Notes under the pieces: generated by a model
Databases searched by the model: none
Told to the model about the DNA's origin: nothing
What the model saw: only the letters and a program-made list of their open reading frames with translations
Shown here: one piece after another, positions 1-60,904 of the stretch
How positions within the stretch are numbered: the first letter of the stretch is position 1
How the letters are laid out: each line of letters starts with the position of its first letter
Assembly (NCBI RefSeq): GCF_900114035.1
Contig: NZ_FORP01000001.1
Location: 744,001 to 808,000, forward strand
DNA: 64,000 bases
Reading direction: 5' to 3'
From: Amycolatopsis sacchari
Lineage (GTDB): Bacteria > Actinomycetota > Actinomycetes > Mycobacteriales > Pseudonocardiaceae
Position numbers and translations under genes: made by a program

Positions 1-909
1 GCGCTGCGCCGTCAGTACCCCGTTGACCGGGTAGCCCAACCGCAGGAACGCCTGCGGGTGTCCCGCCAGGCCGAGTCGTGCGATGAGCCCGGCCCGCACC
101 TCGTGCAGCTGCAGCGGCTGGGTCAGCACCGAGCCGACCAGGCCGTTCGCCACCGCGGTCAACCAGACCTGCTGCAACGCGCGCCCGGCGAGCACGTGGT
201 CGCGCCGGGCGTCGTCGGGGGTCAGCACCAGCAGCAGCTGCTCCCTGGCGAGGCGCTCGGCCAGGGTGATCGTGTCGGGCAGGTGGCTGTCGGCGCGCAC
301 CAGCCCGCTCCACGGCAGCGTCGGCTCGAGCGGCAGTGGGTCGCGGAACTGGTCGGACCACGCGGACAGCTCGCGCTGGTAGGCCCGGTCGGCGCGCAGC
401 ACCCGCCCCGCGTAGCCGAGCAGTTCGGCCAGCGCAGGGGACTCCCGGTCGGCGTGCACCGGCCGGATCTGCGTGCCCGCGACACCGGCGGCCGCCACGA
501 GCGCGGCGACTTCGTGCCTGGCCAGCCGCTGCAGCGCGAACGGTGCGCGGTAGCTGCGCCGCCGGTAGATCGCGCTGTAGCGGTTCACCTCGTCCTCGGT
601 CGCCGGTTCCCGTCCGCGGGCGGCGACGCGGGCGACCAGGTCCGGGCGGGCGCCGTCGGGGAACAGGGTCACCTCCGCGCGCCGGCCGAGTGCGCGCACG
701 GCAAGCTCCACATTGGTCAGCACGGCGCCGCAGGAGATCATCCGGTCGCGCCCGCTCGGGTCGTGCCGCGGCAGCCGGGCCTCGAACCGCTCGTACACCT
801 CGGCTCCGTCCGGGTGGATCTCCACCGCCCACGGCATGCTGTTGTGCACCGACGGCGCGTTCGCCGCCGCGCGCGCGAGCACTCCCACCTCGATGTCCGA
901 CCAGGTCAT
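1..909 (-). CDS. Acg-type nitroreductase family protein, C-terminus cut by window edge
   Basis: Reads from an ATG at 909 on the minus strand and is still open at base 1, so 303 residues are visible; the two complete paralogues in this window are 325 and 332 residues, so little is missing. The N-terminus carries the family pattern ARAAANAPSVHNSMPW, the middle has the arginine-rich RRRSYRAPF segment, and the end has the LRLGYPV strand typical of the divergent nitroreductase/Acg family (M. tuberculosis Rv2032, Rv3127, Rv3131). These are FMN-fold proteins of unclear substrate that are strongly induced by DosR. It is divergent from devR, with two DevR-type boxes in between, so it is probably a direct target. 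Function beyond the fold is inference. Confidence 0.85.
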   Translation of the reverse strand, partial: MTWSDIEVGVLARAAANAPSVHNSMPWAVEIHPDGAEVYERFEARLPRHDPSGRDRMISCGAVLTNVELAVRALGRRAEVTLFPDGARPDLVARVAARGREPATEDEVNRYSAIYRRRSYRAPFALQRLARHEVAALVAAAGVAGTQIRPVHADRESPALAELLGYAGRVLRADRAYQRELSAWSDQFRDPLPLEPTLPWSGLVRADSHLPDTITLAERLAREQLLLVLTPDDARRDHVLAGRALQQVWLTAVANGLVGSVLTQPLQLHEVRAGLIARLGLAGHPQAFLRLGYPVNGVLTAQR

Positions 910-990
910 CGTGACCACCCTCCCGTTTCCTCCGCCGCCAGCGTTCGCGTGCGGCGAGGGGGACGACAGAGCCCCGCTGCCTACCGAAGA

Positions 991-1028
991 GATGACCTTG
1001 GTCCCCGAAGCCGGGGACCAAACGCCAC
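991..1028. promoter_or_regulatory. Paired inverted DevR-type boxes between nitroreductase and devR
   Basis: GACCTTGGTCCCCGAA (994-1009) and CCGGGGACCAAACG (1011-1024) form a perfect inverted repeat: ten-base arms TTGGTCCCCG (998-1007) and CGGGGACCAA (1012-1021) around AAGC. Each arm resembles half of the known DosR operator (GGGACT..AGTCCC). A third partial match, GGGACAAGGGGTGGTCC, lies at 1035-1051. The position supports divergent control and devR autoregulation. Confidence 0.7.
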
Positions 1029-1087
1029 GCCGCCGGGACAAGGGGTGGTCCTAACCTGGATGACGACCGAGCGGAAAGGTGAGGACT

Positions 1088-1738
1088 GTGATCTCGATCT
1101 TCCTGGTCGACGACCACGAGGTCGTCCGCCGCGGCGTGGCCGACCTGCTCGAGACCGATCCGGGCCTCAAGGTCATCGGTGAGGCGTCGAACGCCGCGCA
1201 GGCGCTCGCGCGCATTCCCGCTCTCCGCCCCGACGTGGCGTTGCTCGACGTGCGCCTGCCCGACGGCAACGGGGTCGAGCTGTGCCGCGAGCTGCGCTCG
1301 AAGCTGCCCGACCTCAACGTGCTGATGCTGACCTCCTACACCGACGAGGAGGCCATGCTCAACGCCATCCTCGCCGGGGCAGGCGGCTACGTCATCAAGG
1401 ACATCCAGGGCCTGCAGCTGATCTCGGCGGTGCGGGAGATCGGCGCGGGCCGGTCACTGCTGGACAACCGCGCGGCCGCGACCCTGATGGCCAAGCTGCG
1501 TGCCGACGCGGCCGACCACGGCCCGCTCGCGCACCTCAGCGAGCAGGAGCGCACCCTGCTCGAGCTCATCGGCGAGGGCCTGACGAACCGGCAGATCGCC
1601 GGGCGCATGTTCCTCGCGGAGAAGACCGTGAAGAACTACGTCTCGCGCCTGCTCGCCAAGCTGGGTCTCGAACGCCGCACCCAGGCCGCCGTGCTGGCGA
1701 CCAAGCTGCACGAGCGCCGGCACCCCGACGGGGACTGA
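1088..1738 (+). CDS. devR: DevR/DosR dormancy response regulator (NarL/LuxR family)
   Basis: 216 residues, against 217 for M. tuberculosis DevR, and very similar along its full length. The receiver domain (about 1-120) has D8/D9, the phospho-acceptor D54 in LLDVRLPDG, and K104 in YVIKD. The C-terminal LuxR-type helix-turn-helix (about 148-210) has the recognition segment [17 protein letters not shown], with K179, K182 and N183 at the numbers of the known DNA-contact residues. The GTG at 1088 is preferred over the in-frame GTG at 1079, because AGGTGAGG at 1078-1085 fits as its ribosome site and the numbering then matches DevR exactly. It is probably autoregulated through the boxes at 991-1028 and is the likely regulator of most operons here. 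Its cognate kinase is probably DevS at 19936-21669. Confidence 0.95.
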
Positions 1739-1740
1739 TC

Positions 1741-2628
1741 TCAGCCGGCCCCGTCGGCCGCCGGATCCAGCCGGGCGCCCTCCCGCCAGTGCCGCACGAC
1801 TTCCGCGGAACGGATCACGGCGACCGGACTCGCCGCCTGGCCGGCCACGTGCGTGCTCGTCGAGCCCAGCAGCAGCCGCGCGAATCCCGTGTGCCCCCGC
1901 GCGCCGACCACCAGCAGCCTGGCGTGCTCGCCGAACTGCAAGAGGGTCTCGCCCGCCGGTCCGCGCAGCACGAGGTGCTCGACGGGTACCTGGGGGAACT
2001 CGCCCGCGATCGGGGCGAGCTCAGCCGCGAGGGCCGCTCGTGCGCGTTCGTGGACGCCCGCCGAGTTCGTGGTGCCCAGCGCACGCCACACCCGCAGCGC
2101 GGTGACCGGTGCTCCGTGCGCCGCGGCCCACAGGAACGCGAACCGGGCGGCGGGGGCGCACTCGGGCCACCCGTTGAGCCCGACGACCACCGGCCCCGTC
2201 GCCGGTGCCCGGTCGCGCACCACCACGACCGGGCACAAGGCCTTCATCGCGAGCGCCAGCCCTGCCGAGCCCAGCAGCAGGCGGCTGACGCTGTGCGCTC
2301 CGCGCGAGCCCAGGACCGCCTGCCGCGCCCCGCTCGACTCGGCCAGCAGCACCTTCCGCACGTCACCGGCACGCAGCCGGCTCGCCACCCGCACACCGGG
2401 AGCCGCCAGCGACGCCACGACCTCCGCCTCGCGCAGGTGGGCAGTGCCCTGTTCACGCTGCTGGACCGCGCGCAGCTCCCGGGCCGCGTAGCTCTGCCCG
2501 CCCGGGGAGTACGCGTGCACGAGGGTCAGCGGCTCCCCCGTCGACCGCGCCTCCTCGGCTGCCCAGCGAACGGCCGCCAGTGCCGACGCGGAACCGTCGA
2601 CGCCCACCACCACACCGCTGGTGTTCAT
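1741..2628 (-). CDS. Tandem-domain universal stress protein
   Basis: 295 residues made of two UspA domains (about 1-145 and 150-290). Domain 1 begins [18 protein letters not shown]. Each domain ends in an ATP-binding signature G-x2-G-x9-G-S: GSRGAHSVSRLLLGSAG in the first and GARGHTGFARLLLGSTST in the second. Such tandem USPs bind ATP in the cytosol and are typical DosR-regulon members (Rv1996, Rv2005c, Rv2623). It is the last gene of a minus-strand set with the flavodoxin-like gene and the DUF4389 gene (gaps of 28 and 15 bases). It ends two bases from the end of convergent devR. Confidence 0.92.
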   Translation of the reverse strand: MNTSGVVVGVDGSASALAAVRWAAEEARSTGEPLTLVHAYSPGGQSYAARELRAVQQREQGTAHLREAEVVASLAAPGVRVASRLRAGDVRKVLLAESSGARQAVLGSRGAHSVSRLLLGSAGLALAMKALCPVVVVRDRAPATGPVVVGLNGWPECAPAARFAFLWAAAHGAPVTALRVWRALGTTNSAGVHERARAALAAELAPIAGEFPQVPVEHLVLRGPAGETLLQFGEHARLLVVGARGHTGFARLLLGSTSTHVAGQAASPVAVIRSAEVVRHWREGARLDPAADGAG

Positions 2629-4610: not shown

Positions 4611-4646
4611 CACCAAGGTCCCCGGTGCTCGGGAACTTCGGCTCTG
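4611..4646. promoter_or_regulatory. Two DevR-type boxes between DUF4389 gene and nitroreductase
   Basis: CACCAAGGTCCCCGGTG (4611-4627; the other strand reads CACCGGGGACCTTGGTG) faces the DUF4389 operon. CTCGGGAACTTCGGCTCTG (4628-4646) faces the nitroreductase gene. Both resemble GGGACTT-type DosR half-site pairs. Matched by eye only. Confidence 0.6.
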
Positions 4647-4717
4647 CTCCACCTCGCCCCCGGGCTGCGAGATTCGGGCCGTAGGCCGTCATCCGCAGAC
4701 CGAGGCAGGTTTTTTCG

Positions 4718-5716
4718 ATGGACCGTGGCTTTCCCGACACCCAGACCGTCGAAGCGGCGATCGCCCTCGCGGTCCGCGCGCCGTCGTTGCACAACTCGCA
4801 GCCGTGGCGCTGGCGAGTGGGCGACCGCAGCGTGCACCTCTACGCCGACCGCACCCGGCTGCTGCCCGAGACCGACCCGCAGGGCCGGGACCTCCTGCTC
4901 AGCTGCGGTGCGGCGCTGCACCACCTGCGCACCGGGTTCGCCGCGCTGGGCTGGCGCGCCCAGGTGCACCGGCTGCCCAACCCCGCCGACCCCGACCACC
5001 TCGCCGCGGTCGAGCTGCACCGGCATGACGCGTCCGAACAGGACATCGAGCTCGCCGCCGCGATCCCGCGGCGGCGCAGCGACCGGCGCCGCCACAGCTC
5101 CTGGCCCGTGCCGGACGAGGACGTCCAGCTGATGGCCCGGCGCGCCGCGGCCGAAGGCACCTTTCTCAGCACCAGCGACGGATCGGCCCGCTACCACCTG
5201 TGGCGCGCCATCGTCACGGCCGCGCGGCACCACGAGCACGATCCCGCGTACCGGGCCGAGCTCGCCGAGTGGAGCGGCCGCCACGCCGCACCCGACGGAG
5301 TCCCGAGTGCGAACACGCCCGCGCCGGATCCGAAACCGGGAGCACTGCCCGGCCGCCGGTTCGCCGATCCTCGGCTGGCGCAGCCCGCCGACGCCGACGG
5401 GGAGGCGGACGAGACGATGCTGCTCGTCCTGGGCACCACCTCCGACGACCGGATGTCCCAGCTGCGGGCCGGCGAGGCGACCAGCGCGGTCCTGCTGACC
5501 GCGACCGCGCTGGGGCTCGCCACCTGCCCGCTGAGCGAACCGCTGGAAGTCGCGGACACCCGGGAGATCCTGCGCACCCGCGTGACCGGCGGCAGCTACC
5601 CCCAGATGGTGCTGCGGGTCGGCTGGGCCCCGATCAACGCCGACCCGCTGCCCGCGACACCCCGGCGCGACCTCGCCGAGGTCCTGGCGCCCCTGGACCG
5701 TCCCGTCCGCCGATGA
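4718..5716 (+). CDS. Acg-type nitroreductase family protein
   Basis: 332 residues, full length. The N-terminal VEAAIALAVRAPSLHNSQPW and the RRRSDRRRHSSWPVP segment near 125 match the other two family members here, and LRVGWAP near the C-terminus is the usual terminal strand. The fold is FMN-binding; the substrate is unknown. M. tuberculosis Acg-type proteins are DosR targets thought to bind or sequester FMN, so a reductase role is not certain. The start ATG at 4718 has no strong ribosome site (a weak GAGGCAGG lies about 14 bases upstream). It is followed 11 bases downstream by a small SHOCT protein gene. Confidence 0.88.
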   Translation: MDRGFPDTQTVEAAIALAVRAPSLHNSQPWRWRVGDRSVHLYADRTRLLPETDPQGRDLLLSCGAALHHLRTGFAALGWRAQVHRLPNPADPDHLAAVELHRHDASEQDIELAAAIPRRRSDRRRHSSWPVPDEDVQLMARRAAAEGTFLSTSDGSARYHLWRAIVTAARHHEHDPAYRAELAEWSGRHAAPDGVPSANTPAPDPKPGALPGRRFADPRLAQPADADGEADETMLLVLGTTSDDRMSQLRAGEATSAVLLTATALGLATCPLSEPLEVADTREILRTRVTGGSYPQMVLRVGWAPINADPLPATPRRDLAEVLAPLDRPVRR

Positions 5717-6199: not shown

Positions 6200-6679
6200 T
6201 CAGACGATCGGCCCGGCTTCGTAGCCGAGGGAGCCCATCACCTCGCGCTCGGCCTCCGCGGCCTTCGCGGGCAGGACCACCACCGGGCACGTCGCGTCCC
6301 GCAGGCACTTCGCGCTGACCGAACCGACCAGCGCCCGCACCAGCCTCCCGTGCCCGTGCCTGCCCACCACGAGCAGGTCCGCGTCCCGGGCCGCCGCCAG
6401 CAGCACGTCGGCCGGATCGCCCTCGACGACCTCCGCCCGGGTGGGTACGCCGGGCACGCGCACGGCGTCGACGAACTTCGCCTGCGCGCGCCGGTGTGCT
6501 TCGGCCATCTCCTGGGCCGTGCTCTGCACCGCACCGAGGTCGAGCACGGGGAGGTAGGACCAGGCCGTGACCGCGTGCACCGCACCGCCGGTCAGCTCGG
6601 CCTGGCGCACCGCCCACCGCAACGCGGCGGCGCTCATCGGCGAACCGTCCACGCCGACCACGATCTTGTGTTCGCTCAT
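6200..6679 (-). CDS. Single-domain universal stress protein
   Basis: 159 residues, one UspA domain. It has [24 protein letters not shown] at the start and the ATP-binding signature GRHGHGRLVRALVGSVS near 112-128. Its start overlaps the stop of the upstream DUF1918 gene by four bases (ATGA), so translation is probably coupled. It is part of the long minus-strand operon from 8976 to about 6000. Confidence 0.92.
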   Translation of the reverse strand: MSEHKIVVGVDGSPMSAAALRWAVRQAELTGGAVHAVTAWSYLPVLDLGAVQSTAQEMAEAHRRAQAKFVDAVRVPGVPTRAEVVEGDPADVLLAAARDADLLVVGRHGHGRLVRALVGSVSAKCLRDATCPVVVLPAKAAEAEREVMGSLGYEAGPIV

Positions 6680-6945
6680 GATGCCCTCCTCGTCCGGAAG
6701 ATCTCCTGCTGCACGGCCAGGAACCGCCTGCGCTGCCTCTCCTCTGCGGCGGCGAGCTCGTCCGGTGTCAGCACCTGGGCGTCGGCACCGGGGAAGAAGG
6801 TCGAGACGTGGTCGTCGTGCACCCAGTGCACGACGTAGGGTGGTGCTCCGTCGGGAGCGGTCACCTCGACGATCCGGCCGCGCTGTTCCGCCGCACCGAC
6901 CGTGCGGCTCTTGACGACGATCCAGTCGCCCGTCCTCGCCCGCAT
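6676..6945 (-). CDS. DUF1918-domain protein
   Basis: 89 residues. The N-terminal part (MRARTGDWIVVKS...RGRIVEV...PPYVVHWVHDDHVSTFFPG) is the DUF1918 beta-barrel-like domain, found in many actinobacteria and usually about 58 residues. The C-terminal tail is an arginine-rich helix (AAAEERQRRRFLAVQQEIF). Function unknown. The start at 6945 lies 11 bases after the upstream USP stop codon and the 3' end overlaps the next USP by four bases, so it sits inside the stress operon. Confidence 0.85.
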   Translation of the reverse strand: MRARTGDWIVVKSRTVGAAEQRGRIVEVTAPDGAPPYVVHWVHDDHVSTFFPGADAQVLTPDELAAAEERQRRRFLAVQQEIFRTRRAS

Positions 6946-6956
6946 CGCCGCGCTCC

Positions 6957-7820
6957 TCAACCGCGGGCGACGAGCACGGGGCAGCCGCCGTGCTGGACCA
7001 GGGCCTGGCTCACCGAACCCAGCAACAGCCCCGTGAACCCGCCGCGGCCGCGGCTGCCGACGACGACCATCCTCGCGCTCCGGCTCCAGTCCAGCAGCCG
7101 CTGACGCGGCTTGTCCTCCTCGACGACGCGGCGGACCTCGACGTCGGGGAATTTCTCCCGCCAGCCCGCGAGTGCCTCCGCGAGGACCCGGTTCGCCTTC
7201 TCCCGCAACGGTTCGAAGTCGAACGGCGCCATCGCTTCGGCGAACACCCGGCCCGGGTCGGCGTCGGCCCACACGTGCACCGCCACCAGGGGCACGCCGT
7301 GGACGGCAGCCTCCTCGAAGGCCAGTGCCAGCACCGCTTCCGAAGCCGGTCCGCCGTCCACCCCGGCCACCACCGGGGCCGTGCCCGCCCGGTCCTCACC
7401 CCGCACCACGGCCACGGGGCAATGCGCGTGGGCTGTCAGCGCCGTGGCCACCGAGCCGACGACGAGGTCACCCAGCACCCCGCGGCCGGCGGAACCCACG
7501 ACGAGCATCGTCGCGTCCTCCGACCGCCGCAGCAGCAACGGCACCGGGGAGTCCAGAACGGACTCCTGCTCGACCACCGGGTGGTGCTCGCGGTGCCCGG
7601 CCGCCGCCGCGGCCTCCCGCACGATCTCCTCCGCTTCGAGGCGGCGCGAGTCCAGCCAGTCCCGGGGCGGGAGCGCTTCGCCGTAGAACGCGTCCGGGAT
7701 GCCGAACCCGTTGACCACGTGCAGGGGCAAGTGGCGCAGCGCGGCCTCCTCGGCCGCCCACTCGACGGCGCGCAGCGACTGCCGGGTTCCGTCCACTCCG
7801 ACGACGACCGGGGCGTTCAT
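6957..7820 (-). CDS. Tandem-domain universal stress protein
   Basis: 287 residues, two UspA domains. Domain 1 starts [20 protein letters not shown] and has GSAGRGVLGDLVVGSVAT. Domain 2 starts PVVAGVDGGPASEAVLALAF and has [18 protein letters not shown]. Both G-x2-G-x9-G-S nucleotide signatures are intact. AGGAGGAAAAGGC precedes the ATG at 7820, and the start overlaps the CBS-BON stop codon by four bases (ATGA). Confidence 0.92.
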   Translation of the reverse strand: MNAPVVVGVDGTRQSLRAVEWAAEEAALRHLPLHVVNGFGIPDAFYGEALPPRDWLDSRRLEAEEIVREAAAAAGHREHHPVVEQESVLDSPVPLLLRRSEDATMLVVGSAGRGVLGDLVVGSVATALTAHAHCPVAVVRGEDRAGTAPVVAGVDGGPASEAVLALAFEEAAVHGVPLVAVHVWADADPGRVFAEAMAPFDFEPLREKANRVLAEALAGWREKFPDVEVRRVVEEDKPRQRLLDWSRSARMVVVGSRGRGGFTGLLLGSVSQALVQHGGCPVLVARG

Positions 7821-8410
7821 GCCTTTTCCTCCTGGTGCTCGATTTCTCCCACGTAGCACCGTGCGCGGATCACGCCCGGTACCCCTTCCGCGAGGATCAC
7901 GGCGACCTCGCGGTCCTTGTCGCTGTCGAACCGGTCGAGGATGGTGGCCTCGCCGTCACGGACGTCGACGATCCACCGGTCCCCGCCGCCGAACACGGCC
8001 AGCCGGCCGCGGACGTCGTTCGCCAGTGCCTCGTCCGGGCGGGCCAGCACGCGCAGGAAATCCCTGCGGGTGACCACGCCGGCCAGCTTGCCCCGGTCGA
8101 CCACCGGCAGGCAGCGCAGGTGCTCGTCGAGCATCAGCCGTGCCAGCCGTGCCGCGTCGTCGTCGACGTCGACGGTCCGCACCGGGGCCGTCATGAGCTC
8201 GGCCACGGTGTGCGCCGGGCGGCGCGGCTCGCCGGGGAACCGGTCGGCGATGAAGTCGGCCTCGGTCGCGATGCCGGTGACCCGGTTGTCGTCGTCCACC
8301 ACCGGCAGCGCGGTGAAGCCGCGCTCGGCCAGCAGCTGCCCGGCGATCCTGACGTCCTCGGCGGTGTGGATGGCGACCACGGGTGCGGTCATGATGTCGC
8401 GTGCTCTCAC
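7817..8410 (-). CDS. CBS-pair plus BON domain protein
   Basis: 197 residues. CBS motif 1 begins RARDIMTAPVVAIHTAEDV; CBS motif 2 begins VAELMTAPVRTVDVDDDA and contains LPVVDRGKLAGVVTRRDFLRV. A BON-type segment follows (about 135-190, DVRGRLAVFGGGDRWIVDVRDGEATILDRF). The CBS pair should bind adenine nucleotides; BON often contacts membranes or envelope. It starts at GTG 8410, preceded by GAGGAGGACCCC, which overlaps the stop of the upstream membrane-protein gene by four bases. It resembles DosR-regulon CBS proteins such as Hrp1, with BON added. Confidence 0.9.
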   Translation of the reverse strand: MRARDIMTAPVVAIHTAEDVRIAGQLLAERGFTALPVVDDDNRVTGIATEADFIADRFPGEPRRPAHTVAELMTAPVRTVDVDDDAARLARLMLDEHLRCLPVVDRGKLAGVVTRRDFLRVLARPDEALANDVRGRLAVFGGGDRWIVDVRDGEATILDRFDSDKDREVAVILAEGVPGVIRARCYVGEIEHQEEKA

Positions 8411-8976: not shown

Positions 8977-9010
8977 GCCTCGAAGGTTCCGCACCGCACG
9001 GGTGGCGGCG

Positions 9011-9028
9011 AAGGGTCGTTGGTCCTTT
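9011..9028. promoter_or_regulatory. DevR-type box between Rv1733c-like operon and CBS gene
   Basis: AAGGGTCGTTGGTCCTTT (other strand AAAGGACCAACGACCCTT) is centred about 43 bases before the ATG at 8976 and about 87 before the ATG at 9107. It is almost the same word as the box at 34036-34054 (GGGGACCAACGACCTTT). Confidence 0.7.
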
Positions 9029-9106
9029 CCGGCGGTGCCCGAGGCCCTGTCCCGGTCAGCACTGGTGCCTCTGTTCCGGCGGCCGTGCGGGCGCGAAGCT
9101 CGGGTC

Positions 9107-9523
9107 ATGCGAGCGAGCGACATCATGAGCAGCCCGGTGTTCGGCGTCACCGCCGATGCCGGCATCGAGGAAGCGGCCGCGCTGATGCTGGAGCGCGGGT
9201 TCACCACGCTGCCGGTGGTCACCGGCGAAGGGCGGCTGCTCGGTGTGGTGACCGAGGCGGACCTCGTCGGCGCCCGGTTCGTGCCCGGCGCCCGAGGCGA
9301 GCCCGCTCCCGACAGCGGCACGATCCCCGGCCTCGCACCGAGGCGCGTCCGGCAGCTCGTGCACACCGTTCCACCGGTGCCCGTCACCACGGAGCTGACG
9401 GACGTCATCGCGATCATGGTCGACTCGGGTCGCCGCTGCGTGCCCGTGGTGGCCGACGGGAACCGCCTGGTGGGCATGATCAGCTGGCGGGACGTGCTGG
9501 CGCAGTTGCTCCCGCGCACCTGA
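9107..9523 (+). CDS. CBS-pair protein, Hrp1-like
   Basis: 138 residues, close to the 143 of M. tuberculosis hypoxic response protein Hrp1 (Rv2626c). Two CBS motifs fill the protein: RASDIMSSPVFGVTADAG...LPVVTGEGRLLGVVTEADLV, and VRQLVHTVPPVPVTTELTDV...VPVVADGNRLVGMISWRDVL. There is no BON or other appended domain. Such CBS pairs usually bind AMP/ADP/ATP. The ATG at 9107 begins the MRASDIM signature that opens the related proteins; no strong ribosome site precedes it. Confidence 0.88.
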   Translation: MRASDIMSSPVFGVTADAGIEEAAALMLERGFTTLPVVTGEGRLLGVVTEADLVGARFVPGARGEPAPDSGTIPGLAPRRVRQLVHTVPPVPVTTELTDVIAIMVDSGRRCVPVVADGNRLVGMISWRDVLAQLLPRT

Positions 9524-9604: not shown

Positions 9605-10498
9605 TCACGGGCGGACCACCAGCACGGGGCAGCGGGCGTGGTGCAGGAGCGCCTGGCTCGTCGAGCCCAGCAGCATGCCCTGGAAGCCGCCCCGGCCGTG
9701 ACTGCCGACGACCACCAGCTGCGCCTTCCCGCTCCACTCCAGCAAGCAGTGCCGCGGCCTGTCCTTCAGCACCACGCGATCCACCCGCACGTCCGGGTAC
9801 TTCTCCTGCCAGCCCGCCAGGCATTCGGCGAGCACACGGGCCTGTTCCTCCCGCGTCGGCGCGGTCTCGACGAGCCCGTATTGGACGGGAAGGGTCACGT
9901 AGTCGGCGTCGCTCCACGAGTGGACCGCCACGAGCGGCACCCCGCGCCGCGAAGCCGCGTCGAAGGCGACCTCCAGCGCCCGCGCGCTCGCTGGGCTGCC
10001 GTCGACGCCGACGACCACCGGCCCGCCCGGTGTCCCGGGTGGACGGACCACCACGACCGGACAGGCGGCGTGCGCGACGACCGAGACCGCGGTGGAGCCG
10101 GTCAGCATCCCGCGGTAGCCTCCACGGCCGGACGCGCCGAGCACGACCATCAGCGCCCGTCGCGACTCGTCGAGCAGCAACGGGACGGGCTGGTGCCGGG
10201 CCCGTTCGGTCCGCAGCGGAACCCGCGGCGCGACCTCGCGGGCCACCGCGGCCGCGCGCACCAGGTCCGCCTTCGCCGCCTGCTCGACCGAGTCGACCGG
10301 CACAGGTGGGACGGGACCGCCCTCGCCGTACCACGCGATCGCCGGATCGAACCCGGACACCAGGTGCAGCCCGGCGTGCCGGCTCGCCGCCTCGCGCGCC
10401 GCCCAGCGGACGGCTTCGAGCGCCCGCGCGGATCCGTCGACGCCGACGACGATCCCGCCGACGGCACGCTCATCCTCCATTGTGGATACGACAGGCAT
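9605..10498 (-). CDS. Tandem-domain universal stress protein
   Basis: 297 residues, two UspA domains: [20 protein letters not shown] with GASGRGGYRGMLTGSTAV, then [20 protein letters not shown] with GSHGRGGFQGMLLGSTSQ. Both nucleotide signatures are intact. GAAGGAGGACGAC before the ATG at 10498 supports the long start rather than the internal Met at residue 7. It is the third gene of the minus-strand set USP-CBS/BON-USP (12077 to 9605). Confidence 0.92.
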   Translation of the reverse strand: MPVVSTMEDERAVGGIVVGVDGSARALEAVRWAAREAASRHAGLHLVSGFDPAIAWYGEGGPVPPVPVDSVEQAAKADLVRAAAVAREVAPRVPLRTERARHQPVPLLLDESRRALMVVLGASGRGGYRGMLTGSTAVSVVAHAACPVVVVRPPGTPGGPVVVGVDGSPASARALEVAFDAASRRGVPLVAVHSWSDADYVTLPVQYGLVETAPTREEQARVLAECLAGWQEKYPDVRVDRVVLKDRPRHCLLEWSGKAQLVVVGSHGRGGFQGMLLGSTSQALLHHARCPVLVVRP

Positions 10499-10509
10499 GT
10501 CGTCCTCCT

Positions 10510-11175
10510 TCAGACCGCCCCGGCGTCGTCCACGTCGAACTTCAGCTCGTCGTACACCGCGACGACACCGGGAATGGCTTCGGTCAGAGCCACCGCGCGG
10601 CGGGCCTCGCTGCGCAGTTCCACCGACCCCCTCAGCGTCACCTCACCATCGCGCACCCGGGCACTCGTCCGGTCGGGATCCGCCCACAGGCACCGGCGCA
10701 GCACGTCCTGCTCGACCTGCTCGCGCAGCTCCTCGTCGGAGCGCAGGAACACGTGCAGCAGGTCCCGTTTGGACAGTACGCCGACGAGCCGGCCGGAGCC
10801 GTCGACGACGTACAGCCGCCGCAGCCCCTGGCGCAGCAGGCGCCGCGCGGCGGCCGCGGCCGGTTCCTCGCGGCCGATCACGTGAACCCGGTCGCTCATC
10901 ACGTCCCGCGCCGTCGTTCCCCTGCCGCGGTCCCAGCGCCGCCAGCGAGCGCGGGAAGCCAGCACCGACGGGGGCTCGGCCTTTTCGCGCTGGCCTTCCT
11001 TCAGCAGCAGGTCGGTCTCCGACACCACGCCGACCGGGTGGTCGCCGCCGTCGAGCACGGGCACCGAGCCGATCTTGTACTCGGTGAGGATCGCGACCAG
11101 GTTCTTGAACGGAGTCATGGGCGACACCGTGACGACCGGATGGGTCATCAGGTCCGCCACCAGCGGCTTCCGCAC
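10510..11175 (-). CDS. CBS-pair plus BON domain protein
   Basis: 221 residues. CBS 1: VADLMTHPVVTVSPMTPFKNLVAIL; CBS 2: ARDVMSDRVHVIGREEPAAA with LYVVDGSGRLVGVLSKRDLLHVF. The C-terminal BON domain (about 150-221) contains VRDGEVTLRGSVELRSEARRA...IPGVVAVYDEL. GTG at 11175 is preferred because AGGAGGTG lies seven bases upstream. An in-frame GTG at 11184 overlaps the USP stop codon but has no spacing for a ribosome site. Same architecture as the CBS-BON protein at 24977. Confidence 0.9.
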   Translation of the reverse strand: MRKPLVADLMTHPVVTVSPMTPFKNLVAILTEYKIGSVPVLDGGDHPVGVVSETDLLLKEGQREKAEPPSVLASRARWRRWDRGRGTTARDVMSDRVHVIGREEPAAAAARRLLRQGLRRLYVVDGSGRLVGVLSKRDLLHVFLRSDEELREQVEQDVLRRCLWADPDRTSARVRDGEVTLRGSVELRSEARRAVALTEAIPGVVAVYDELKFDVDDAGAV

Positions 11176-11180
11176 CGGCC

Positions 11181-12077: not shown

Positions 12078-12163
12078 CGCCGTTCGCTCCTCTTTTCCTT
12101 GTCACTCAAGCGAAAGCTAGCCGCATCGCGGCACAGCGACGGCGGGCGTTCGTCCTCCGCCCA

Positions 12164-12181
12164 GAGGACTTTGTCCCCCAG
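12164..12181. promoter_or_regulatory. DevR-type box between USP operon and DoxX-like gene
   Basis: GAGGACTTTGTCCCCCAG is a good match to the palindromic GGGACTTTNGTCCC pattern. It lies 86 bases before the minus-strand USP start and 54 bases before the plus-strand DoxX-like start, so it could serve both. Confidence 0.7.
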
Positions 12182-42196: not shown

Positions 42197-42253
42197 GCCT
42201 TCAGAGAACCGTCAACCGCCCCGGCCCCGACGCGGCCGGAGTCCCCCAATGGC

Positions 42254-48493: not shown

Positions 48494-48541
48494 CGGGATC
48501 AAGTGACTTCCTGCCCTCATCGGAGCCGGGACCTCCCGGGC
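48494..48541. promoter_or_regulatory. DevR-type boxes between CBS-USP-xfp operon and PPOX-like gene
   Basis: AGTGACTTCCTGCCCT (48502-48517) differs from GGGACTTNCGGCCCT at two to three positions. GCCGGGACCTCCCGGGCA (48526-48543) is a second weaker match. Located between divergent starts 48443 and 48591. Confidence 0.5.
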
Positions 48542-49142: not shown

Positions 49143-51776
49143 TCAGCTCCCGGGGAACGCCGCCCGACGCGACTGGTCCCTCCGGCGGCGCCGGTAGCGC
49201 AGCAGCTCGTCGGCACCCCACACGACCACGGGGAACGGCACCAGCATCGCGAGCATCCACGGCGACAGCGCGGCCGTGCCGAACACGTCCTGCAACGGCG
49301 GCACGGAGACCAGCGCGGCGGTGAAGACCAGTTCGAACAGGATCCCGCCCAGCAGCAGCCGGTTGCTGAAGACGCCGACGGACCGCAGCGACGCCCACTC
49401 GGTGCGGGCGGCGAACGCGGTGCCCACCTGGCAGGCGACGATCCCGGCGAAGGTGACCGTGGTGGCCTGCAGGTAGGCGTGGTGCAACGGCGTGCCCTCC
49501 CCCACCGGGTCACCCGGGTGCCAGCCCGCCGCCAGGAGCACGGCGAAGAACCCGGCGGTCACCAGCACCGCCGACACCACCCCGAGCAGACCCCAGGCGC
49601 GAGCGAGCAGCCGCCGCGTGATGACGCCCTCGGTGCGCGGGCGCGGGCGCCGCGACATCAGCCCGGGCTCCGCGGGTTCGCGGCCGAGCGCGAGGGCGGG
49701 CAAGGTCTCGGTGCCCAGGTCGATCGCCAGGATCTGCAGCACCGTCAGCGGTAGCGGGATCAGGCCGCCGGACAGCGCGAACAGCAGGAACGGCACGATC
49801 TCCGGGACGGCGTGGGCGAAGATGTAGAGCACGAACTTGCGGACGTTGTCGAAGACCCGGCGGCCCTCCTCGATCCCGGCGGCGATCGTGGCGAAGTTGT
49901 CGTCGGTCAGCACCAGGGTCGCGGCCTCCCGGGCCACATCGGTCCCGCCCCTGCCCATCGCGACGCCGATGTCGGCGCGTCGCAACGCCGGGGCGTCGTT
50001 CACGCCGTCACCGGTCATCGCGACCGTTTCCCCGTTGTGGCGCAGGGCATCGGCGATCCGCAGCTTCATCTCGGGGGTGGCGCGGGCGAACACGATCTCG
50101 CCCGGCGCGGCCAGCAGCGCGTCCAGCTCGGCGTCGGACATCGCGTCCACCGCCGTCCCGTCGACCACCCGGTCCGCACCGATACCGACCTCCCGCGCGA
50201 TCTCCCCCGCGGTCCGCCCGTTGTCGCCGGTGATCACGTGCACGCGGATTCCCGCGGCGTGCACCACCCCCACCGCGGCGGACACCTCCGGCCGGGGCGG
50301 GTCGAGCAACCCGACCAGCCCGACGAAACGCAGCCCCTGCTCGGCTTCTTCCTGCGACGGCAGGCGCGGCCCGTCCCAGTCCCGGCAGGCGACCGCGAGC
50401 ACCCTCAGCCCGCGCCCGGTCCACTCGTCCACCCGGTCCTGAACGTCCACAGTGGAACCGCAGCGTGGCAGCACCGCTTCGGGCGCGCCCTTCACGTGCA
50501 CCCGAAGTGCTCCACCGATCTGGTCCACAGTGGACATCATCTTGCGGCGCGGGTCGAAGGCGTTCAGGACGCGCCTCCCGGCCTCACGCCGGTCCGGCGG
50601 CAACGCGGTGCCCGCGGACTCCGCGTAGCGCAGCAGCGCGATCTCCATCGGATCACCCGCCTCGTGCTCCCCCAGCTCCGCCGTGGAACACCAGGCCAGC
50701 ACCTCCCCCAGCTCCGGCGAGTCCGCACTCGCCTCGACCACCCGCATCGAGTTGGCCGTCAGCGTTCCGGTCTTGTCGGTGCAGACCACCGTCGTCGAGC
50801 CCAGGGTTTCGACCGCGGACAGCCGTTTCACCACGGCACCCCGGCGGGCCATGGACCGCACACCCACCGCCAGCGCCAGGGTGATCGTCGGCAGCAGCCC
50901 TTCGGGAACGTTGGCCACCAGCAGCCCGATCGCGAACAGGAACGCCGCCCCCAGCGACAGCCCCGCCACCAGCCCCAGCGGCAGGAACGCCACCCCGGCG
51001 CCCACCGCCACCGCCGCGATCAGCCACGCCACCCGCCGGACCTGCCGCTCCAGCGGACTCTCGTCCTGCCGCACCCGTTGCGACAACGCCGCGATCCGGC
51101 CCAGCTCGGTGTGCACTCCGGTGCCGTGCACCACGGCCCGTCCCTCGCCACCGGTGCAGACCGTTCCGCTGAACACCAGCACCGGCGAATCCAGCGTCCG
51201 GTCCGCGTCGTCGGCGGCGGAGGCGCTGCGCGGCACCGGGTTCGACTCGCCGGTGAGCGCGGACATGTCCACCTCGACGGCCCCGTCGACCAGCCGCGCG
51301 TCGGCGGGAACACGCTCCCCCTCCTCGACCACGAGCAGGTCGCCGCGCACCAGCTCCCGCACCGGGACGCGGGTGCGGTGCCCGTCGCGCACGACCCAGA
51401 CCTGCTGCGGCAGGAAGCGGCCCAGCGCCTCCACCGCGTGCTCGGCCTGGCTCTCCTGCCAGAACGCCAGCACCGCGTTGAGCACGATCACGACGAACAC
51501 CGCGATGCCCAGCGACGTCGAACCGGACACCAGCGCCAGCACCGCGGCCAGCCACAGGAGCAGGGCGAGCGGATGGGTGAACTGCTTGCCCAGCGAAACC
51601 CACCAGCGGCGGCCCCGCCGCTGCGGAAGCTCGTTCGGCCCGTACAGCTCCAGCCGGCGCGCCGCCTCCCGCTCACCGAGCCCGGCGCTGCCGGTGCGCA
51701 GGTCGCGCATCAGCGCGGCGGCAGGCTCCCGCGGATCGATGTCGTCGGGCACCGGGGCGGCGGAAGTCAGCGTCAT
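49143..51776 (-). CDS. P2-type cation-transporting ATPase
   Basis: 877 residues. Actuator [15 protein letters not shown], membrane motif [21 protein letters not shown], phosphorylation site [18 protein letters not shown], hinge [31 protein letters not shown] is the pattern of Na+/K+-, H+/K+-type (P2C-like) pumps rather than Ca2+ pumps (compare PEGLPA in the protein at 31311), so the ion may differ. No ribosome site at ATG 51776. Divergent from the decayed HAF gene, with two DevR-type boxes between. A second P2 ATPase inside a DosR-like region is notable. Confidence 0.92.
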
Positions 51777-51820: not shown

Positions 51821-51880
51821 TAAGTCCTTTCGGCAGGGCCGATGGTCTCCGCGCCACGCACGGGGGACTTTCGGTTCTGT
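51821..51880. promoter_or_regulatory. Two DevR-type boxes between ATPase and HAF pseudogene
   Basis: The first, read on the minus strand, is GGCCCTGCCGAAAGGACTTA (51821-51840). The second, GGGGGACTTTCGGTTCTGT (51862-51880), is among the best matches to GGGACTTTCGGNCC. They lie 45-104 bases from the ATPase start and 57-116 from the HAF pseudogene start. Confidence 0.7.
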
Positions 51881-54284: not shown

Positions 54285-54394
54285 GTTTCCCTCCTCGGAT
54301 TCGCGGACGGCCGGGCCAGCGAATCGGGCAGGAGGAACTCGCAACACAGCATTTCTGCTCTTGTGCCAGTGACAAACGCCCCTCGCGGTGAGCG

Positions 54395-55584: not shown

Positions 55585-56841
55585 GTGCTGCAGACCGTGG
55601 ACGTGGGTGAGCTGTCGATCGGCGCCTACCTGCAGGTCGTGCCCGAGGAGATCATGGCCCCGCTGCTGGAGGTGGCCGGCCGCCTGCGTGGCGCCCGCGT
55701 GCTGCACCTCAGCGCGACCCCCTACGGCGGAGGGGTGTCGGAGCTGCTGCGGTCCGCTGTCCCGCTCTACAACGACCTCGGGGTCCACGCGACCTGGAAG
55801 ATCATCACCGGCCTGCCGCCGTTCTTCGCCGTCACCAAGAAGATGCACAACGCGCTGCAGGGCGCCACCACCCCGGTCACCGCCGAGGACCGGGCCCTGT
55901 ACGAACGGACGGCCGAGCGCAACGCCGCCCAGCTGCGGGCCGACCCGGAGTTCGCCGGCTTCGACTACGTCTTCGTCCACGACCCCCAGCCGACCGCGGT
56001 CCGGTCCTATGTGGACGGATCCCGCGCCCGGTGGGTCTGGCGCTGCCACATCGACACGTCGCAGCCCGACCTCGCGACCTGGCACTACCTGCGGCGCTTC
56101 CTCGAACCCTACGACGCCACCGTGTTCACCACGGCGCAGTTCGTCCCGCCCGACCTGCCGCCCGGCCGGGTTGAGATCATCCCGCCCGCGATCGACCCGC
56201 TGAGCCCCAAGAACATGTCGCTGGACGACCGGACCGCGCACGCCGTGCTCAACTGGATCGGCATCGAGCCGCGGCGGCCGCTGATCACGCAGGTGTCCCG
56301 GTTCGACCCGTGGAAGGACCCGCTCGGCGTCATCGACGCCTACCGGCTGGTCCGCAAGGAAGTGCCGGACCTGCAGCTCGCGCTCGTCGGGTCGATGGCG
56401 CTGGACGACCCGGAGGCGTGGGAGGTCTACCGCACCATCGCCGACGCCGCCCGCGACGACCCTGCCGTGCACCTGTTCACCAACCTCACCGGCGTCGGCA
56501 ACGTCGAGGTCAACGCGTTCCAGCGGATGTCCGCGGTGATGGTGCAGAAATCGCTGCGCGAGGGTTTCGGGCTCGTCGTCTGCGAAGCGCTGTGGAAGGG
56601 CACCCCCGTCGTCGCGGGACGAGCGGGCGGGATCCCGCTGCAGATCGCCGACGGCGTGGGCGGCGTCCTCGTCGACTCGGTGGCCGGCTGCGCCGAAGCG
56701 ATCACCGGGCTGCTCACCGACCGGCCCCGCGCGGCGGCGCTGGCCGCCGCCGGCCACGAACGCGTCCGCCGCCACTTCCTGCTGCCCCGGCTCCTGCTCG
56801 ACGAGCTCACCCTGCTCGACGCACTGGCCCAGGAGCGGTGA
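55585..56841 (+). CDS. GT4 glycosyltransferase, TreT-like trehalose synthase
   Basis: 418 residues. N-terminal domain with [28 protein letters not shown], and [13 protein letters not shown] in the acceptor half. C-terminal GT-B donor domain with [42 protein letters not shown] and [21 protein letters not shown] (E-x7-E region). The overall pattern matches trehalose glycosyltransferring synthase (TreT), which joins NDP-glucose and glucose into trehalose. GTG 55585 has GGAGG upstream. It overlaps the galT-like gene by one base. Trehalose would be a fitting protectant, but donor specificity is inference. Confidence 0.85.
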
Positions 56842-57788
56842 TGACGGCGAAACGCTGGCACGGCGGTGAACTGCGCTGGGACCACCACAGCGGGGAGTGG
56901 ACCGTGCTCGCTCCCGGCCGGGCCGGTCGTCCGCACGGCGCGGTCACCTGCCCGTTCTGCCCTGGCCCCGGCGAGGACACGCCCCCCGAGACCTGGCGCC
57001 TGCCGGATCCCGGCGGCGGTTGGCGCATGCGCGCCGTGCCCAACCGGTACGCGCTGTCCGACCACCACGAAGTCGTCATCGAATCACCCGACCACGGCTG
57101 GGATCTCGCCATGGCCACCGACGCGGAAGCCACGGCGCTCCTGAAGGCGTGGCAGCACCGCCACCTCATGACCAGGGCGGGCACGGCGCAGGTGCTGGTC
57201 TTCCGCAACCACGGAGAAGCCGCCGGGACCTCGTTGAGCCATCCCCACTCGCAGGTGGTCGGCCTGCCGGTGCTGTCCGCGGCCACCCAGCGGGAGCTCG
57301 CCGTCGCCCGCGAGCACTACGACGCGACGACCCGGCCCCTCGCCGTCGAGCTGCTGGCCGGCGAGCTCGCCCACGGCGAGCGGATCGTGCTCTCCCACGG
57401 TCAGGCGGTCGCGTTCACGCCGTTCGCCCCCGCCGCGAACTTCGAGGTCCGCGTGGTGCCGACCCGTCACCACGCGGACTTCTGCGCGGCCTCCCCCGCG
57501 GAACTGGCCGCCGTCGCCCACGTGCTGCGGATCGTGCTCGCGGCGCTGCGCATCGGACTGGTCGACCCGCCGTACAACCTCATCGTCCACAGTGCACCGA
57601 CCGGGCTGGAGCAGGTGCCCTACCTGTCGTGGTGGCTGCGGATCCTGCCCCGGCTGAGCGTCCCCGCCGGGCTGGAGCTCGCCACCGGTGTCCCGGTCAG
57701 CACCGTCACGCCCGAAGACGCCGCCGAGCGCCTCCGGGCGTGGATCGCCGGCCTCGAGCCGGACGTCATCCCGCCACCACCGCCGTGA
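56841..57788 (+). CDS. galT: Galactose-1-phosphate uridylyltransferase-like enzyme
   Basis: 315 residues. [12 protein letters not shown] (zinc-binding cysteines), [47 protein letters not shown] with the active-site H-P-H, and [10 protein letters not shown]. This is the HIT-superfamily GalT fold, which moves UMP (or another NMP) between sugar 1-phosphates. Together with the upstream TreT-like gene it may form or recycle NDP-glucose rather than serve the Leloir pathway, as no galK or galE is nearby. ATG at 56841 overlaps the previous stop. Its last 23 bases overlap the convergent gene. Confidence 0.87.
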
Positions 57789-59746: not shown

Positions 59747-59749
59747 CGG

Positions 59750-60760
59750 TCAGCCGAGGTAGGCGGCGACCAGCTCGACGAGGTCCAGCGTGCGGTGGGC
59801 GTAGCCCCACTCGTTGTCGTACCAGCCGAACACCTTCACCAGGTTCTCGTCCGCCTTCGTCAGGCTCGAGTCGAACACGCACGAAGCCGGATCACCCACG
59901 ATGTCCCGCGAGACGATCGGCCGGTCCGTGTAGCGCAGCACCGTCTTCAGCCCGCCCGACGCGGCTTCCGCGAACGCCCGGTTCACCTGCCCGGCCGTGG
60001 CGGGTTCTTCGAGCTCCACGGTGAGGTCCGTCAGCGAACCGTCCTCGACGGGTACCCGCACCGACACGCCGTCCAGCCGGCCCGCGAGTTCGGGCAGCAC
60101 CTCGCCGATCGCCCGCGCCGCACCGGTGCTGGTCGGGATCAGGTTGACCGCCGCCGACCGCGCGCGCCGCAGGTCCTTGTGGGGGCCGTCCAGCAGCGAC
60201 TGGTCGTTGGTGTAGCTGTGGATCGTCGTCATGAAACCGCGCCGCACCCCGAACGCGCGGTGCAGCACCTGCGCCATGGGCGCCACGCAGTTGGTGGTGC
60301 ACGAGGCGTTGGAGACCACGTCGTGCCGGTGCGGATCGTAGGCGTCCTCGTTGACCCCCATGACGATCGTCGCGTCGACCCCCTTGCCAGGCGCGGACAC
60401 GATCACCTTCCGCGCCCCCGCCGTCAGGTGCGCGGCGGCCGCTTCGCGGGTGCGGAACCGGCCGGTGGACTCGATCACGACGTCCACGTCGTGCTCGCCC
60501 CACGGCAGGCGTGCCGGGTCGGCCTCCTCGGTCACGTGGACCGTCTGCGTCCCGACCACCATGGCCGACTTGCGCACGTGTACGGGCGTGCCGAGGTGAC
60601 CGTAGGTGGAATCGAACTCCAGCAGGTGCGCCAGCGTCTCCGCCGGCACCAGGTCGTTCACCGCCACCACCTCGATGTCCTCGCGGGGAGCGGCGAGCAC
60701 GCACCGCAGCACGTCCCGCCCGATCCGGCCGAACCCGTTGATCGCCACTCGCGTCGCCAT
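59750..60760 (-). CDS. gap: Glyceraldehyde-3-phosphate dehydrogenase
   Basis: 336 residues. NAD-binding MATRVAINGFGRIGRDVLRC, the catalytic cysteine in VVSNASCTTNCVAPM, and the phosphate-site GFMTTIHSYTNDQSLLDGPHKDLRRARSAAVNLIPTSTGAA (substrate loop), WYDNEWGYAHR near the end. It oxidises glyceraldehyde 3-phosphate with NAD and phosphate; phosphoketolase at 44592 also yields this substrate. AAGGAGACGAGAC precedes ATG 60760. A clear DevR-type box lies about 60-75 bases upstream, so this is probably a dormancy-specific paralogue rather than the glycolytic operon copy. Confidence 0.93.
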   Translation of the reverse strand: MATRVAINGFGRIGRDVLRCVLAAPREDIEVVAVNDLVPAETLAHLLEFDSTYGHLGTPVHVRKSAMVVGTQTVHVTEEADPARLPWGEHDVDVVIESTGRFRTREAAAAHLTAGARKVIVSAPGKGVDATIVMGVNEDAYDPHRHDVVSNASCTTNCVAPMAQVLHRAFGVRRGFMTTIHSYTNDQSLLDGPHKDLRRARSAAVNLIPTSTGAARAIGEVLPELAGRLDGVSVRVPVEDGSLTDLTVELEEPATAGQVNRAFAEAASGGLKTVLRYTDRPIVSRDIVGDPASCVFDSSLTKADENLVKVFGWYDNEWGYAHRTLDLVELVAAYLG

Positions 60761-60818
60761 GTCTCGTCTCCTTCGCCGGGCTTTCGGCCCATGCTTCGTC
60801 CGCCGGGCGTGCACGGCC

Positions 60819-60836
60819 TAGGGACTTCCGGCCTTT
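60819..60836. promoter_or_regulatory. DevR-type box upstream of gap operon
   Basis: TAGGGACTTCCGGCCTTT on the plus strand, one of the best matches in the window to GGGACTTNCGGCCNT. It is 59-76 bases before the gap ATG, with no gene on the other side that would use it. Confidence 0.75.
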
Positions 60837-60904
60837 GCCGTGAGGCCCGAGGCCGCTTGGCCGACTCCGGTGCGGCTCACGGCGCGAACTGACGCGAGGT
60901 CGAG

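Follow-up and report, generated by a model that had tools for sequence, protein, structure and literature searches.

A probable DevR regulon cluster in Amycolatopsis sacchari with putative operators before stress-protein and fermentation genes

The window analyzed here is a stretch of 64,000 nucleotides from the genome of Amycolatopsis sacchari; its genes and predicted operators are collected in Table 1. The original prediction had read positions 1 to 60840 as a 60-kb, single self-contained dormancy module with eight universal stress proteins (USPs), five CBS proteins, three Acg nitroreductases, a long HPF, PPK2 and P2 ATPases. This gene content is largely borne out: the eight USP genes account for 13 of the 25 Usp matches in the genome and the five CBS genes for 10 of its 34 CBS matches, HPF, PPK2 and the ATPases are in place, and three nitroreductases are present, with the PDB comparison to Acg covering nitroreductase 2. 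The predicted right limit also stands, as a box at 60818 marks that edge, but on the left the cluster goes on for ~28 kb past the window start. The whole cluster comprises ~90 genes over ~89 kb (715.7k to 804.8k of C32, the contig that carries the window), and the window forms its right two thirds. The left extension contains pyruvate:ferredoxin oxidoreductase (por), cytochrome bd, wax-ester synthases (WS/DGAT) and, at C32:738.6-743.0k, [NiFe] hydrogenase genes for sulfhydrogenase-type subunits that score below the equivalog cut-off. HypF- and HypE-type genes adjoin them.

Table 1. Genes and predicted DevR boxes of the window (positions count from its first nucleotide)
Feature	Position	Strand	Match or score
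Nitroreductase 1	1..918	-	Acg-like by its paralogues; runs to window edge
DevR box, nitroreductase 1 / devR	989..1008		16.1 bits
DevR response regulator, 216 aa	1088..1738	+	PDB 3c3w, E 3.7e-95; D54, K104, K179, K182, N183
USP1 (tandem Usp)	1741..2628	-	Usp matches
DevR box, divergent USP1-flavodoxin-DUF4389 operon / nitroreductase 2	4628..4647		11.3 bits
Nitroreductase 2 (Acg)	4718..5716	+	PDB 2ymv, E 5.8e-45
USP2, DUF1918, USP3	6200..7820	-	domain matches
CBS1	7817..8410	-	CBS matches
DevR box, divergent USP/CBS operon (genes 8-13) / CBS2	9010..9029		16.9 bits
CBS2	9107..9523	+	CBS matches
USP4, CBS3, USP5	9605..12077	-	Usp and CBS matches
DevR box, divergent USP4-CBS3-USP5 operon / DoxX	12162..12181		11.8 bits
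Nitroreductase 3	13843..14820	-	domain match
DevS/DosT-type haem sensor kinase (predicted), 577 aa	19936..21669	+	PDB 2vzw, GAF-A, E 2e-64; Pfam
Long HPF (21674-22429) and PPK2 (22455-23246)	21674..23246	-	
DevR box, divergent HPF-PPK2 operon / AAA_33 gene	23408..23427		12.1 bits
CBS4	24977..25633	-	CBS matches
P1B-type ATPase with C-terminal hemerythrin domain	28378..30627	-	
P2-type cation ATPase a	31311..33980	-	
DevR box, divergent P2 ATPase a / GNAT	34036..34055		15.3 bits
USP6 and pyruvate phosphate dikinase (PPDK)	34605..37305	-	
DevR box, divergent PPDK-USP6 operon / USP7	37368..37387		10.8 bits
USP7	37475..37939	+	Usp matches
Acetate kinase and GNAT-fused acyl-CoA ligase (ADP-forming type)	38451..42166	-	
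DevR box, upstream of acyl-CoA ligase (ADP-forming type)-acetate kinase operon	42252..42271		15.3 bits
Phosphoketolase XFP, USP8, CBS5	44592..48425	-	
DevR box, upstream of CBS5-USP8-phosphoketolase operon / PNPOx-like gene	48500..48519		11.4 bits
P2-type cation ATPase b	49143..51776	-	
DevR box, upstream of P2 ATPase b	51833..51852		13.8 bits
DevR box, upstream of secreted repeat protein (looks like a ricin-B-type lectin)	54366..54385		14.3 bits
TreT-type trehalose synthase and GalT-like uridylyltransferase	55585..57788	+	
GAPDH	59750..60760	-	
DevR box, upstream of GAPDH operon; right cluster edge	60818..60837		14.6 bits

The best PDB match of window DevR is M. tuberculosis DevR, over its full length. 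In the alignment D54, T82, K104, K179, K182 and N183 all fall at these numbers, which (T82 aside) agrees with the residues originally named for a full-length DevR and supplies both the phospho-acceptor and the recognition-helix residues of a DosR/DevR/OsdR orthologue. The kinase consists of two GAF stretches, HisKA_3 and HATPase (Pfam) and is predicted to be a haem-GAF sensor of the DevS/DosT type. Its H395, also foreseen, lies within the phosphoacceptor motif. H147 had been described as standing in place of the haem histidine, but in the alignment it matches the haem histidine of DosT/DevS, and this residue is therefore conserved and not replaced. Y169 is present as well, and G84 occupies a position that is Gly in DosT and Glu in wild-type DevS; for the haem-pocket and phosphoacceptor residues we assume the customary numbering and meaning. 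The kinase gene lies 18 kb from devR.

The DevR operator, AGGGaCnATnGtCCCT, was learned without the A. sacchari genome. The training set of the main, de novo matrix was 80 DevR loci from other genomes; since this set includes loci of other Amycolatopsis, we also used a second matrix from 39 non-Pseudonocardiales loci. Seeds of the dosR, osdR and everted types, as well as 1 of 12 random seeds, reached the same operator, with a log-likelihood of 942 versus at most 506 for the remaining seeds. This operator took the place of two candidates that were given up: the strict M. tuberculosis-type consensus, in the form we take it to have, returned 0 sites, and a matrix from 25 published S. coelicolor sites was weakly enriched (7 intergenic matches versus 0.9 expected at 7.8 bits). 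The box form published for R. equi occurs, with at most one mismatch, at 1.47 per kb of window intergenic DNA versus 0.16 in the background; exact copies number 0 in the window versus 3 in background intergenic DNA. Among k-mers of window intergenic DNA, GGGAC and AAGTCC are enriched, a signal too weak on its own.

Boxes precede operons of the block well above the background of the genome examined. The 80-locus matrix gave 25 intergenic matches of at least 8 bits, 22 of them distinct and inside positions 1 to 60840, close to the twenty or so first proposed. With the 39-locus matrix, 12 of 24 window promoter regions reach 10 bits versus 10 of 361 elsewhere (Fisher p 7e-11), and 6 of 24 reach 14 bits versus 0 of 361. 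This background comprises 51 pieces (1,020 kb, 400 kb of it from other contigs) of the same genome, some of them picked near USP, CBS or DevR-like genes, so the contrast is a conservative one. Two further DevR/DevS loci (A and B, below), a USP piece (L010) and the far flanks of the cluster were tallied apart from the 361, and the operator scan covered ~1.2 of the genome's 7.6 Mb. In the far flanks 0 of 17 regions reach 10 bits and 2 of 17 reach 8 bits. Across all 29 window intergenic regions of at least 60 bases, 12 reach 10 bits, versus a mean of 0.7 (maximum 4) in 200 dinucleotide shuffles. The 80-locus matrix finds 13 of the 24 promoter regions at 10 bits, versus a mean of 0.5 (maximum 4) for 200 permuted matrices. 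The original prediction had named scoring against shuffled sequence and the rest of the genome as its check, and both comparisons, the second over the part of the genome scanned, come out in favor of the boxes.

The placement of the boxes is regular. Pooling the cluster with locus A, locus B and the USP piece gives 31 intergenic sites, of which 94% are 30-95 bp from a start codon and 20 separate divergent genes; across 80 relatives, the same spacing holds for just 65% of 371 sites. Boxes of at least 10 bits precede 21 of 40 predicted transcription units, or 39 of 66 genes. Seven of the 24 window promoter regions stay below 8 bits, among them the promoters of the ferric reductase-ApbE-OmpR operon, DUF488, the methyltransferase and DevS, so parts of the block may fall outside the regulon; single weak boxes (8-10 bits) are doubtful. 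A scan of the devS promoter found no box (best match, 3.7 bits), whereas both paralogous devS genes carry one upstream. On this gene content and operator distribution, we consider it quite probable that this Amycolatopsis-type actinomycete has its main DevR (DosR/OsdR) regulon cluster here, under low-oxygen DevR control.

The cluster could also be a DevR regulon that answers mainly to NO, CO or redox state instead of low oxygen, a reading we find unlikely though worth weighing. The mycobacterial DosS/DosR system is reported to respond to CO, NO and redox (PMC8125079). A set of alternative electron sinks with USP and CBS proteins would, moreover, suit any respiratory block. Against this stand cytochrome bd and hydrogenase in the same cluster, along with the haem pocket of window DevS, which has the Gly of DosT and not the Glu of DevS. 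Gly at this position favors direct oxygen sensing.

The cluster is not the genome's sole DevR locus. Contrary to the idea of a self-contained module, two further DevR/DevS loci with boxes and a nitroreductase of their own lie on the same contig, locus B also having two USPs. Regulator and kinase are 0.6 kb apart at locus A, with one gene between, and 4 kb apart at locus B. The DevR copies of these two loci are ~87% identical to window DevR and two more are 57-59% identical (at C32:187k and on C36). Two further full-length haem-type DevS, at C32:174k and C32:393k, are 89% and 72% identical to that of the window. Boxes outside the cluster also precede a USP gene at C32:243.7k, a second cytochrome-bd-like gene on C36 and a USP gene on C47. 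Because the three closely similar DevR copies share their recognition residues, the box cannot tell them apart. Might another NarL-type regulator, such as one of the 57-59% paralogues, be the main reader of the boxes, with window DevR in a minor role? We think this improbable. The genome does encode these two more DevR-like proteins, and the C32:187k copy retains the EKTVKNYVS recognition stretch, but the matrix came from DevR neighborhoods of other genomes, a 16-bit box stands in devR's own promoter, and the partner kinase of the C32:187k copy lacks a histidine at the haem position.

Dense co-localization of the genes and the comparable clusters of distant actinobacteria might suggest a horizontally acquired island that brought the whole dormancy regulon in one step. 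This is very improbable: window GC (0.68-0.75 per 2 kb) is close to the 72% of the sampled genome, the window has no tRNA, no integrase is among the genes named, and 17 of 18 Amycolatopsis congeners have a DevR. In a DevR tree built by a quick method from 38 of 86 available rows, with 18 of its 35 inner branches left open, the copies group with other Amycolatopsis, with weak support; the DevR paralogues may perhaps be older than the species. Chance, by which GGGAC-like boxes would arise anywhere in GC-rich intergenic DNA, can point to a published box form that, if up to 2 mismatches are allowed, turns up 1.35 times per kb of background coding DNA, but is refuted for the box set as a whole by the background, shuffles and permuted matrices above.

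We compared this DevR cluster with known systems. The DosR regulon of M. tuberculosis is scattered over several loci. What we take to be its membership shares with A. sacchari DevR, a haem kinase, Acg, USPs and a Rv2632c/Rv1738-type gene, as well as an Hsp20-like gene, WS/DGAT and a CtpF-like ATPase; to our knowledge it lacks the fermentation block. A regulon gathered beside devR is not new: M. smegmatis and S. coelicolor have published clusters of this kind, and the A. sacchari block is a larger relative of both. M. smegmatis has DevR clusters msmeg_3926-3955 (31 genes) and msmeg_5241-5246, and excerpts of PMC2799521 report induction of its comparable cluster at 2.5% oxygen saturation. As far as these excerpts go, both species have clusters near DevR/DevS and more than one DevR locus (two copies in the M. 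smegmatis genome), and both clusters include a [NiFe] hydrogenase, a cation P-type ATPase and a PEP-forming enzyme. Unlike M. smegmatis as described there, A. sacchari has ~90 genes over 89 kb, three closely similar DevR and a DevS distant from DevR. Phosphoketolase, acetate kinase, acyl-CoA ligase, GAPDH, TreT, cytochrome bd and por appear to be additions, in a comparison of the clusters in outline and not gene by gene. Hypoxic induction is shown for M. smegmatis and predicted for A. sacchari. The OsdR/OsdK cluster of S. coelicolor, SCO0167-SCO0219 (PMC5069765), has in common with it a DevR orthologue, a palindromic GGGMC-type box, USPs (8 of the 11 in that genome lie in the region) and nitroreductase, PPDK and PNPOx genes behind predicted boxes. 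The S. coelicolor cluster contains nitrate reductase, which is not among the genes named in A. sacchari, and alcohol dehydrogenase, while phosphoketolase and acetate kinase are absent from its site table. Further, osdR and osdK form one operon, while regulator and kinase stand apart at all three A. sacchari loci.

The metabolic genes are the least documented part of the cluster. Phosphoketolase, acetate kinase, ADP-forming acyl-CoA ligase, PPDK and GAPDH all stand behind boxes. The role of phosphoketolase was left open in R. equi (PMC2947987). In M. massiliense a comparable usp-xfp-devR-kinase locus, with phosphoketolase directly between a USP and a DevR, is listed as conserved genes, and the excerpted source claims neither an operator nor DevR control (PMC4263727). 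We scored phosphoketolase genes across relatives, calling a neighborhood DevR-type if at least two genes on the piece matched USP, CBS, Acg, DevR, DevS, PNPOx-like or Rv1733c-like proteins. Of 22 genomes with the gene, the window's own and three in which it apparently lies at a contig end (G004, G014, G015) were excluded; 24 loci were taken, 19 from one set and 5 of the 6 with the gene from another, and L031 (its upstream region also too short) and L033 were removed as duplicates of L156 and L157, leaving 22. Boxes precede 13 of 15 phosphoketolase genes in DevR-type neighborhoods and 0 of 7 in others, with the neighborhood rule and the 9-bit cut both fixed after the result was seen. At 10 bits the former count is 12 of 15. 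The two exceptions are L166 (6.2 bits) and L051 (1.1 bits); L158, with one DevS and 3.6 bits, misses the rule, and its inclusion gives 13 of 16 versus 0 of 6. Genome G036 has one boxed phosphoketolase in a DevR-type neighborhood and one of the other kind.

In our reading the cluster is a putative switch, run by DevR, that combines stasis with a change to acetate and H2 fermentation. As oxygen falls, the DosT-type haem GAF kinase (window DevS or a paralogue) would lose its ligand, autophosphorylate on H395 and pass the phosphate to D54 of DevR, probably of any of the three closely similar copies. DevR dimers would then occupy the AGGGaCnATnGtCCCT boxes, mostly 50-90 bp upstream of a start codon and often between divergent operons, and turn the block on. 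USPs, CBS proteins, HPF, Acg and PPK2 would serve stasis. Energy may come from phosphoketolase by way of acetyl-phosphate to acetate and ATP, joined by ADP-forming acyl-CoA ligase, PPDK and GAPDH, and the pyruvate:ferredoxin oxidoreductase, cytochrome bd and [NiFe] hydrogenase of the left part may provide electron outlets. A broader proposal is tentative, and we lean slightly against it: in Pseudonocardiaceae and some others of the order, DevR would directly command hypoxic acetate/H2 fermentation besides stasis, as one operator-defined pathway (the CBS-USP-phosphoketolase and acyl-CoA ligase-acetate kinase operons, PPDK, GAPDH and the adjoining pyruvate:ferredoxin oxidoreductase and hydrogenase) run by several interchangeable DevR/DosT-type pairs, with the response scaled by their duplication.

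The dormancy switch best known from tuberculosis also precedes, in a soil relative, a clustered survival-and-fermentation program whose operator can be read. Control of phosphoketolase and acetate kinase by DevR, if real, would suggest a respiration-free route to ATP in aerobic actinomycetes. Amycolatopsis would also lend itself well to the question of why three closely similar DevR/DevS pairs persist in one genome.

A 20-base palindrome was learned from 706 promoter-type intergenic regions of 80 DevR loci in other genomes, and its matches were scored in bits as predicted DevR operators (boxes). The motif, AGGGaCnATnGtCCCT, was reached from the dosR, osdR, and everted seeds and from 1 of 12 random seeds with a log-likelihood of 942, the remaining 14 seeds giving at most 506. 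It was also recovered when training was restricted to the 39 loci outside Pseudonocardiales (329 regions). Among the 24 promoter regions of the window, 17, 12, 8, and 6 carry boxes of at least 8, 10, 12, and 14 bits, respectively; the corresponding counts among 361 regions taken from 1,020 kb of genomic DNA outside the window are 24, 10, 5, and 0. Matches in the coding DNA of the window are no higher than background. The median distance from box to nearest start codon is 62 bp (31 sites), with looser spacing in relatives.

A codon-usage script called 66 genes, with predicted start codons, in the window, which lies at C32:744001-808000. Boxes of at least 10 bits precede 21 of 40 predicted transcription units (39 genes), and boxes of at least 8 bits precede 32 (57 genes), although single boxes of 8 to 10 bits are doubtful. 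The eight units without a box of at least 8 bits are DevS, the nitroreductase at 13843, hyp35, DUF488, the methyltransferase, the repeat proteins at 52169-53748, and two genes right of 60840. The sole match at the ferric reductase-FMN-ApbE-OmpR operon (8.8 bits) overlaps the start of a neighbor. Located just before DevS, these genes might form a flavin-based unit of their own for electron transfer, which could also transcribe DevS.

All components named in the original prediction of a 60-kb dormancy island were found: DevR, DevS, universal stress proteins (USPs), CBS proteins, nitroreductases, HPF, PPK2, and ATPases. The window holds 8 of the 16 USP genes of the 7.59-Mb, 72-contig genome (our own grouping of 25 Usp matches), for which the rough tail probability, given 64 of 7,587 kb, is 2e-13. 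Of the 34 CBS matches in the genome, 10 fall within the five CBS genes of the window. The cluster is real and well above chance. It continues leftward, where 4 of 9 promoter regions at 704-744k of the contig have boxes of at least 10 bits. To the right, boxes of at least 10 bits are absent from the promoter regions at 808-848k (0 of 17 in the far flanks together) and from those around PepX/MarR. Because the block goes on to the left and the GAPDH box is taken as the right edge, the whole cluster spans about 89 kb.

In a homology search, the closest relatives of the DevR in the window were from Amycolatopsis. This protein matches M. tuberculosis DevR across its full length and keeps D54, T82, K104, K179, K182, and N183. 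DevS combines two GAF stretches with a HisKA_3/HATPase kinase. The best match of GAF-A is chain 2vzw (E 2e-64), which we take to be DosT, followed by DevS chains; H147 aligns with the heme histidine, and G84 occupies a position that is Gly in 2vzw and Glu in wild-type DevS. Gly instead of Glu at this position favors direct oxygen sensing. By analogy with work on DevS, DosT, and OsdK, from which the early steps are borrowed, loss of oxygen from the kinase heme would lead to phosphorylation of H395 and phosphotransfer to D54 of DevR, whose dimer would then occupy the box and activate paired divergent operons; the residues and sites alone come from the window.

Contrary to the original proposal, the cluster is not self-contained, since two more DevR copies (~87% identical to that of the window) and two more heme-type DevS (89% and 72%) are encoded elsewhere in the genome, at loci A and B. 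Boxes lie 61-62 bp upstream of both outside DevS genes; the window DevS has none. A fourth, divergent DevR/DevS-like pair has a kinase without histidine at the heme position. Among congeners, DevR is found in 17 of 18 genomes at E 1e-75 or better, in up to five copies.

Features of the cluster and of related loci (C, contig; L, sequence piece; unprefixed positions, window numbering)
Feature	Position	Content	Predicted boxes
Whole cluster (approximate)	C32:715.7-804.8k	~90 genes	
Left extension, ~28 kb (L003, L004)	C32:715811-743798	Pyruvate-type 2-oxoacid:ferredoxin oxidoreductase (por genes) with fused NAD(P)-binding/PorD protein; Hsp20-like gene; sulfide:quinone reductase (SQR); two wax-ester-synthase-family genes (one above family cut-off); sulfhydrogenase-type [NiFe] hydrogenase subunits; DsrE; cytochrome bd; HypF- and HypE-type genes; Rv2632c-like gene; USP	
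Electron transfer genes	15533-19857	Ferric reductase-like, FMN_bind, ApbE, OmpR-type two-component pair	No clear box
Metal ATPase	28378-30627	P1B-type, fused with C-terminal hemerythrin domain	9 bits
Secreted repeat protein	53793-54284	Resembles ricin-B-type lectin	14 bits
Matches right of GAPDH box	63715, 63925		8-9 bits
Locus A	C32:174185-178659	DevR, DevS, PNPOx-like gene, nitroreductase	At least 10 bits in 3 of 7 regions (20-kb piece)
Locus B	C32:392351-399582	DevR, DevS, nitroreductase, two USPs, alcohol-dehydrogenase-like gene	5 of 11 regions of the piece
Divergent pair	C32:187438-189623	Adjacent genes look, in our reading, like an RsbR/S/T-type stressosome module	
Outlying site (C36)	L121:5386-5615	Upstream of second cytochrome bd oxidase-like gene (our sequence reading)	13 bits
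Outlying site (C47)	L123:10406-10593	Upstream of isolated USP gene	14 bits

Several metabolic genes lie behind boxes: an acyl-CoA ligase-acetate kinase operon (15.3 bits), CBS5-USP8-phosphoketolase (11.4 bits), PPDK (10.8 bits), and GAPDH (14.6 bits). Among 22 distinct phosphoketolase loci of relatives, 13 of 15 in a DevR-type neighborhood have a box of at least 9 bits, compared with 0 of 7 in other settings (Fisher p 2e-4, the neighborhood rule and 9-bit cut-off having been worded after the result). One relative (G036) has two phosphoketolases, one boxed beside DevR and one isolated without a box (pieces L168 and L167). Of all the evidence, this box contrast in relatives points most strongly to selection for DevR control of phosphoketolase.

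The accessible text of earlier studies describes comparable arrangements. In M. smegmatis, 31- and 6-gene clusters near DevR/DevS, which include hydrogenase, P-type ATPase, and PEP synthase, are induced at 2.5% oxygen saturation (PMC2799521). The core OsdR regulon of S. coelicolor is SCO0167-0219, with boxed PPDK and USPs and several sites backed by EMSA (PMC5069765). For R. equi, DosR boxes are listed and a phosphoketolase of unclear role is mentioned (PMC2947987), and usp-xfp-devR lie side by side in M. massiliense (PMC4263727). The main text of an M. abscessus DosRS paper, as accessible, contains neither "phosphoketolase" nor "acetate kinase" (PMC10034137). In the literature searched, which was largely open-access, DevR was not described as a regulator of phosphoketolase; this does not prove that no such report exists. 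In kind, the cluster is largely familiar; what is newer is its size, the presence of three closely similar regulators, and the link of the operator to a putative acetate fermentation.
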